Shown here: piece by piece, positions 29,703 through 58,164 of the stretch
How positions within the stretch are numbered: the first letter of the stretch is position 1
Layout of the letters: every line of letters starts with the position of its first letter
Source: Thermophilibacter mediterraneus
GTDB lineage: Bacteria; Actinomycetota; Coriobacteriia; Coriobacteriales; Atopobiaceae
NCBI RefSeq assembly: GCF_900119385.1
Contig: NZ_FPKO01000009.1
Location: forward strand, 705,405-769,404
DNA: 64,000 bases
Direction: 5' to 3'
Program-made: the position numbers and the translations under genes
The notes under the pieces: generated by a model
Told to the model about the DNA's origin: nothing
The model's database searches: none
What the model saw: only the letters and a program-made list of their open reading frames with translations

Positions 29703-29765
29703 GTGCAAAGGGGACAGTCCCTTTTGCACGCTTCCATCGTGCAAAAGGGACTGTCCCCTTTGCAC
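29703..29765. repeat. GTGCAAA inverted-repeat element A (rplK-rplA gap)
   Basis: Two 27-base arms, 29703-29729 (starting GTGCAAAGGGGACAGT) and 29739-29765 (starting GTGCAAAAGGGACTGT), are perfect reverse complements around a nine-base loop. Each arm is also nearly palindromic. Three related elements occur at 46831, 49011 and 58097. Confidence 0.9.
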
Positions 29766-29812
29766 ATACGATGTGGGAGGGCCGACGGCCCGCTGACCAC
29801 AGGAGGTAGCAC

Positions 29813-46823: not shown

Positions 46824-46830
46824 CTGGTAC

Positions 46831-46903
46831 GCGTGCAAAAGGGACAGTCACTTTTGCACGCGCACATGACGGACGTGCAAAAGTGACTGTCCCTTTTGCA
46901 CGC
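46831..46903. repeat. GTGCAAA inverted-repeat element B (fabG-fabF gap)
   Basis: Perfect 30-base arms 46831-46860 and 46874-46903 around a 13-base loop, containing GTGCAAAAGGGACAGTCACT. It ends just before the fabF ribosome binding site. Compared with element A, base changes in one arm are matched in the other. Confidence 0.9.
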
Positions 46904-46916
46904 GTTGGGAGTTGAG

Positions 46917-48582: not shown

Positions 48583-48996
48583 ATGAACAGGGAAGAGCTC
48601 AAGAGCCTGCTTCCGCACCGAGAGCCCATGCTGCTCCTCGACGAGGCCGAGGTCGTGGACGGGGAGGCCCACGGCAAGATCACCATTACCGGGGACGAGT
48701 TCTTCGTCCAGGGCCACTTTCCGGGGAACCCCATCGTCCCCGGCGTCATCCAGTGCGAGATGCTGGCGCAGAACTGCTGTGTCCTGCTCGCCAACGATCT
48801 CGCGGCGAAGGGGGCCACGCCCTTCTACACGAGCCTCGACAAGGTGCGCTTCAAGCACCCCGTGCGCCCCGGCGACACGATCGAGCTCACGTGCCGCATC
48901 ACCAAGAGTCGCGGGCCCTTCCGCTTCGCCACGGGCGAGGCGCGCGTGAACGGGGAGCTCTGCTGCCAGGCGGAGATGTCGTTCGCGCTCATGTAG
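48583..48996 (+). CDS. fabZ: 3-hydroxyacyl-ACP dehydratase FabZ
   Basis: Hot-dog-fold dehydratase of the elongation cycle, 137 residues. LLPHREPMLLLDEAE, GHFPGNPIVPGVIQCEMLAQ (catalytic His and Glu) and KVRFKHPVRPGDTI are diagnostic. GGGGGGC precedes the ATG by a few bases. No fabA or fabM is present, so unsaturated fatty acid synthesis is not explained by this cluster. Confidence 0.96.
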   Translation: MNREELKSLLPHREPMLLLDEAEVVDGEAHGKITITGDEFFVQGHFPGNPIVPGVIQCEMLAQNCCVLLANDLAAKGATPFYTSLDKVRFKHPVRPGDTIELTCRITKSRGPFRFATGEARVNGELCCQAEMSFALM

Positions 48997-49010
48997 TGAC
49001 AACGCCGGCC

Positions 49011-49078
49011 GTGCAAAGGGGACAGTCACTTTTGCACGGCCGGCGCCGAGCGTGCAAAAGTGACTGTCCCCTTTGCAC
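49011..49078. repeat. GTGCAAA inverted-repeat element C (fabZ-accC gap)
   Basis: Perfect 27-base arms 49011-49037 (GTGCAAAGGGGACAGTCACT...) and 49052-49078 with a 14-base spacer. The flanks add GCCGGCC/GGCCGGC symmetry around the left arm. Confidence 0.9.
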
Positions 49079-58096: not shown

Positions 58097-58164
58097 GTGC
58101 AAAGGGGACAGTCACTTTCGCACGGGCGGAACGCGCCGTGCGAAAGTGACTGTCCCCTTTGCAC
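58097..58164. repeat. GTGCAAA inverted-repeat element D (before rplC)
   Basis: Perfect 27-base arms 58097-58123 (ending TTTCGCAC) and 58138-58164 (starting GTGCGAAAGTGACTGT) around a 14-base spacer. The A-to-G change relative to element C occurs in both arms. Confidence 0.9.

Follow-up and report, generated by a model that had tools for sequence, protein, structure and literature searches.

REPIN-like inverted doublets and their probable TIRtron-type RAYT in Thermophilibacter mediterraneus, and different tip families at orthologous gaps of its relatives

In this work, we analyzed four long inverted repeats in a 64,000-nt stretch of the Thermophilibacter mediterraneus genome (the window, C1:705405-769404 of a genome of 2.37 Mb in nine contigs, G000), together with the repeat family to which they belong, in this genome and in its relatives. 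They are best explained as REPIN-like miniature elements belonging to a TIRtron-type RAYT: with high probability, each of the four hairpins joins two inverted copies of a 27-nt imperfect palindrome in the manner of TIRtron ends, and their cognate enzyme is RAYT1, encoded elsewhere in the same genome.

All four elements were found where the initial annotation had placed them. Element 1, in the rplK-rplA gap, consists of a left arm at 29703-29729 (+) and a right arm at 29739-29765 (-) that is its perfect inversion, separated by a 9-nt spacer (29730-29738). Element 2, in the fabG-fabF gap, has 27-nt core arms at 46833-46859 (+) and 46875-46901 (-) with 15 nt between them, and its stem continues beyond both ends of the core arms to a length of 32 bp, leaving a loop of 13 bases and covering 46829-46905 in total. 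The arms of element 3, in the fabZ-accC gap (49011-49037, +; 49052-49078, -), and of element 4, upstream of the rplC ribosomal cluster (58097-58123, +; 58138-58164, -), enclose spacers of 14 nt each, and the paired region of element 4 reaches 31 bp around a loop of 10 bases. The unit, GTGCAAA(A/G)GGGACAG(T/G)C(A/C)CTTT(T/C)GCAC, is present twice in each, in inverted orientation. The matched base changes reported in the initial annotation were recovered as well: CCC occurs in both arms of element 1 and CAC in both arms of the other three, and TTTCGC takes the place of TTTTGC in both arms of element 4 alike. The near-palindromic arms had also been held to permit two folds, and each arm is indeed able to fold alone; predicted RNA folds reach -52 to -63 kcal/mol for the long hairpin and -12 to -31 kcal/mol for the two short hairpins together.

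Stable inverted repeats directly past stop codons could be taken for intrinsic transcription terminators, a reading to which we attach almost no credence: the elements are located within operons of ribosomal and fatty-acid genes, a transposase gene is enclosed by arms of the same kind, and tRNA families were the only Rfam matches in the window at the gathering threshold. A T-run is absent after all four elements, by which this candidate is largely refuted. Beside element 1, the stretch at its 3' side (29766-29812, GATGTGGGAGGGC...GCCCGCTGACCACAGGAGG) is conserved in 27 species directly before rplA; its sequence looks like an L1-binding leader, and it gave no Rfam match at the gathering threshold.

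The family extends through the whole genome. A degenerate arm pattern gave 78 forward and 81 reverse matches and its reversed-pattern control none, so the matches are not due to chance, and 95 near-palindromic 27-nt arms were collected from the stretches around them, a collection that is not exhaustive for more diverged copies. Low copy number, or loss of pairing in other copies, would have spoken against the relationship to REP-type elements proposed in the initial annotation. These arms make up many copies, and 25 close inverted pairs occur among them, all 25 in +/- configuration, with identical arms in 21 (3.0 expected under random arm pairing; maximum of 9 in 2000 draws). Rare variants, e.g. 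GTGCAGAGG and GTGCAAGGG, occur on both arms of one pair, and in a few elements, such as those at C1:333810 and C3:394992, the outer flanks are complementary too. Since 64 of 70 elements overlap no gene call, the family presents itself as REPINs do, as many inverted doublets of a short imperfect palindrome, mostly extragenic. Two places stand apart, C1:378852-379408 and 886661-887235, at each of which a +/- pair of identical arms, about 0.5 kb from each other, encloses a segment that has no gene call and lies between convergent genes; these might be larger units or chance neighbours.

Arms of inverted repeats are known to be homogenised by template switching (PMC8604942; also PMC8794818). As this process yields such paired arms, matched changes alone are no proof of selection for pairing; matched changes and perfect pairing fit template-switch homogenisation and need not mean that pairing was selected. 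Covariation inside the arms of 15 tip families was overwhelming, with a score of 0.77 vs 0.19, in a test that is partly circular, because many of its arms were found by their palindromy.

Regarding their siting, all four elements of the window lie between co-directional genes, as described previously, but this does not hold as a genome-wide speciality: gaps with pairs were co-directional in 15 of 22 classifiable cases vs 112 of 169 background gaps, and a preference for co-directional gaps was accordingly rejected. Convergent and divergent gaps also hold elements, at about background proportion. Within co-directional gaps, pairs often lie 7-24 nt past a stop and close ahead of the next gene.

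The genome also holds 45 lone arms, on C1, C3 and C6 (e.g. C1:301701, C1:395928, C6:439104 and C6:588744). About half of them are at most 2 nt from a stop; in 15 of the 45 an in-frame TAG stop lies exactly 1 nt away, with the 5' end of the arm towards the gene in 13. Close pairs do not have this adjacency to stop codons. In Pseudomonas fluorescens, lone REPs are interpreted as remnants (PMC3116915); in contrast, half of the lone arms of this genome directly adjoin an in-frame stop. A 5' GTAG or GT[AG]G foot was found in none of the 25 close pairs (one has CTAG), and the TAG of the GTAG-C ahead of about a dozen lone arms is the in-frame stop of the neighbouring gene; a GTAG foot as part of the doublets was rejected on both grounds. 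Because the pairs have no GT[AG]G foot, we do not file the elements as canonical REPs. Literature searches gave nothing useful on REPs at stop codons.

The initial annotation had pointed to transposases of the REP-associated type as the likely movers and had noted that none is encoded in the window. The latter is correct for the window, but the genome contains three Y1_Tnp genes, two for RAYTs and one of the IS200 type. RAYT1 (C1:398574-399317, minus strand, 247 aa), outside the window, just passes the NCBIfam model NF047646 for REP-associated tyrosine transposases (80.7 bits, cut-off 80), is an HUH/Y1 protein by its Y1_Tnp match (60.2 bits) and contains NHVH and YIHNNP motifs; the only solved relative recovered for it by sequence is 4er8, a TnpArep chain. 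At its C-terminus, residues 220-244 match HTH_31 below the cut-off of that model (E=0.027), and the second RAYT matches HTH_7, again below the cut-off (E=6.6e-4). The RAYT1 gene is bracketed by arms of the same family in the same configuration as in the doublets, at 398546-398572 (+) and 399377-399403 (-), and so takes the spacer position of a giant pair. Many copies and an arm-bracketed RAYT thus support the proposed likeness to REP-type elements moved by RAYTs, and a cognate RAYT flanked by the same repeat is a further REPIN trait. From this association we infer that RAYT1 may move these elements. The second RAYT gene (C1:1071358-1072131) is flanked by other inverted repeats (TTGACACTGG...), and the IS200-type gene (L031, C1:996997-997341) encodes a probably inactive transposase, since its HUH motif reads DHAR in place of DHVH.

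Homologues of the RAYT are present in 83 of 140 genomes of the same family, and most of the 70 homologue loci inspected have an inverted-repeat pair around the gene, whose core is of the GGGACAG type and whose tips are specific to the clade (GTGCAAAA, TTGACAA, TTCAAAA/TCCAAAA/GTCAAAA, GTTACGA/GATACGA, GAGACAA, GCCTAAA and others). GTGC arms reach their highest numbers in genomes with a RAYT that shares at least 90% identity with RAYT1; counted on both strands, matches number 232 in G097, 230 in G090, 159 in the genome of the window, 151 in G095, 108 in G100, 70 in G112 and 31 in G087. TTCAAAA arms peak in G104, G105 and G106, and GATACGA/GTTACGA arms in G108, in each case the tip around the genome's own RAYT; the genome of the window has 2 TTCAAAA and 0 GATACGA/GTTACGA matches. 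Judging from these sequence counts, tip-specific copy number broadly follows the local RAYT allele. Exceptions are G109 and G113, in which no close RAYT accompanies the 66 and 61 GTGC matches, respectively, and G111, with few copies although a RAYT is present. In G095, G087 and G100 the GTGC-type RAYT is seemingly split or truncated (L085, L087 and L097, respectively; an assembly error is possible), and these genomes still hold many GTGC arms. On account of these exceptions and of the broken-looking RAYTs, the elements apparently persist for longer than their RAYT.

The position of the RAYT gene, by contrast, is fixed: in 18 members of the genus and in five of a second one, it follows a glnQ-like ATPase gene and precedes a common downstream gene. 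The flanking genes mostly show 80-93% DNA identity within the genus, and RAYT proteins with non-GTGC tips share 55-66% identity with RAYT1. On a species tree built from eight shared segments, the tip state of the locus changed at least seven times among the 18 species. The stop codon of glnQ falls within the arm or beside it and varies between alleles: in the rows that show the conserved glnQ end in frame, C-GTGC arms follow a TAG, a C-TTGAC arm follows a TAA, and TTC, GATACG, GTTACG and GAGAC arms have a TGA at or within them.

Outside this locus, the rplK-rplA, fabG-fabF and fabZ-accC gaps carry many tip families at the orthologous place in sister species. When 20-75 kb per species were scanned in 14 species, blind to the positions of the four elements, (i) the 36 occupied species-gap combinations fell in 8 gaps, vs means of 17-25 (lowest 10) under four null models that leave unequal gap tolerance out (p<=0.001), and (ii) 82 pairs with different tips shared a common gap, a number reached in at most 0.1% of simulations. 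In a separate comparison, the tip at the site was that of the species' RAYT in 28 of 43 cases, vs 10.9 expected (maximum of 24 in 10,000 shuffles that ignore kinship). Phylogenetically independent pairs all agree in direction and are too few for significance. Taken together, we interpret these sequence comparisons as a few persistent sites being occupied recurrently, with some turnover of the arms in place being likely.

How the tips turn over can be read in a second way, a variant of the same explanation, in which only a few gaps are tolerant, each family inserts anew through ordinary repeated insertion and arms are never changed in place; we consider its chances to fall slightly short of even. 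It agrees with the published assumption that new variants spread and old ones decay (Nunvar et al. 2013, PMC3686654), and the fabZ-accC gap offers two points in its favor: TTCAAAA elements enter there at two points, one truncating fabZ and one past the ancestral stop, and the sister species G084 and G101 carry unrelated elements. Against it, the length-weighted and co-directional null models still predict many more gaps than observed, and at fabG-fabF the element boundaries agree almost to the base in several families. The spacers argue in the same direction. With one representative per tip and site, compared on the same strand, spacers of the same site were alike across tip families beyond expectation (0 of 5000 permutations as high). 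This signal is driven by rplK-rplA (p=0.004), where the spacers within GATGAAA, GTTACGA, GATACGA and GTGGAAA arms resemble each other, suggesting partial exchange of the arms in place; taken singly, fabG-fabF and fabZ-accC reached no significance for spacer homology in the permutations. A far-reaching form of such exchange, in which each swap of allele at the fixed RAYT locus is followed by genome-wide rewriting of both arms to the new tip, driven by the resident RAYT and with spacer and position kept, is conceivable but rather doubtful.

At fabZ-accC, nine species have no element, and the G111 spacer is similar to the G104 spacer read as its reverse complement. The end of fabZ (window 48980-49010; orthologues L134-L163) mostly has a few extra codons in species without the element, and in element-bearing species fabZ usually ends directly after ATG; element insertion thus seems to have shortened the fabZ protein.

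Under the preferred explanation, of TIRtron-like doublets with RAYT1 as their enzyme, events may proceed as follows, by analogy with related enzymes. A RAYT would recognise an arm in its folded, single-stranded form by the tip and by the shared GGGACAG core, cleave it and help to copy or insert doublets, which would survive mainly at harmless places, at or just past stop codons. Template switching between the arms would keep each doublet perfectly paired, and, once the resident RAYT allele is exchanged, the new tip family would replace or overwrite the elements at persistent sites, in part without a change of position.

The elements might instead be chiefly host regulatory RNA hairpins between operon genes, serving 3' end protection, partial termination or ribosome spacing, with their likeness to RAYT ends being secondary. 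Selection for pairing would then explain why the base changes match and why many species have an element in the same gaps, and the very stable predicted folds, the position of many pairs between a stop and the next gene and the re-use of the same few gaps would suit such a function. Furthermore, in element-poor species the re-used gaps show somewhat more structure, a weak difference (p=0.013) for which gap length and relatedness are confounders and which was obtained with species that are still not wholly free of such arms. However, the same arms bracket a transposase gene, copy number tracks the RAYT allele, convergent and divergent gaps are occupied at about the background rate, and fabZ-accC is empty in nine species, so we consider this reading improbable as the main account. 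A role for the host, or in operon expression, is possible, and a regulatory hairpin may be a secondary role at some sites.

Among the closest known systems are TIRtrons (TIRYT), in which a RAYT-like gene is flanked by TIR repeats with GGGGWSAS (Di Nocera et al. 2013, PMC3733652). Here, too, a RAYT-like gene lies inside inverted repeats bearing this motif, as GGGGACAG in G-variant arms and with one mismatch in A-variant arms (AGGGACAG), and the same core stands around most homologues; moderate-copy TIR families occurring as dimers or clusters are a further likeness. Unlike TIRtrons, the present system has a large doublet population (25 close pairs), is found in Atopobiaceae and exchanges its tip alleles at a fixed locus. 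By the NHVH and FQ motifs of its sequence, the RAYT probably belongs to TnpAY1 subclass 2.1, whose C-terminal HTH is represented here by weak matches, below curated cut-offs. This subclass matches Bertels group 1, and REP-like neighbours were not found for it by Quentin et al. 2018 (PMC6006769). With the REPINs of P. fluorescens (Bertels and Rainey 2011, PMC3116915), the elements share the arrangement of an imperfect palindrome as inverted doublets whose spacer varies, the location outside genes and the many copies, the flanking of the cognate RAYT by the same repeats, the two folds and the compensatory changes; they differ in having no 5' GT[AG]G on the pairs and a RAYT of a different group.

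An orthoswitch of REPs is already a published precedent: Nunvar et al. 2013 (PMC3686654) described syntenic RAYTs with different repeat classes and populations changing accordingly, and in their model new variants spread while old ones decay elsewhere. In contrast, the change can here be traced site by site, as orthologous gaps stay occupied while the element passes from one tip family to another, and at one site the spacers seem to have been kept. In the template-switch homogenisation of Abraham and Hazkani-Covo 2021 (PMC8604942), paired arms are made identical and spacers may be inverted, as here; those reports concern yeast genes and RNA hairpins and not RAYT-linked repeats, and in our elements the mismatch within each arm persists. 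Among the papers listed by literature searches, none described REPs in Olsenella or other Atopobiaceae, and, as far as we found, a large TIR-type REPIN-like population in Atopobiaceae, the history of its sites in about 27 species and the placing of a stop codon at the arm are new.

Altogether, this set bears on the question of why RAYTs are retained over long times in bacteria without a clear benefit. It represents a natural experiment, with one fixed RAYT locus, at least seven tip changes in 18 species and a record of specificity in up to dozens of elements per genome, in which one can ask whether the co-evolution of RAYTs and their repeats proceeds through re-insertion or through conversion in place, and whether the host makes use of the gaps that are kept. 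It also suggests that the TIR-type RAYT group, reported to be without REP-like repeats, can have a large REPIN-like population.
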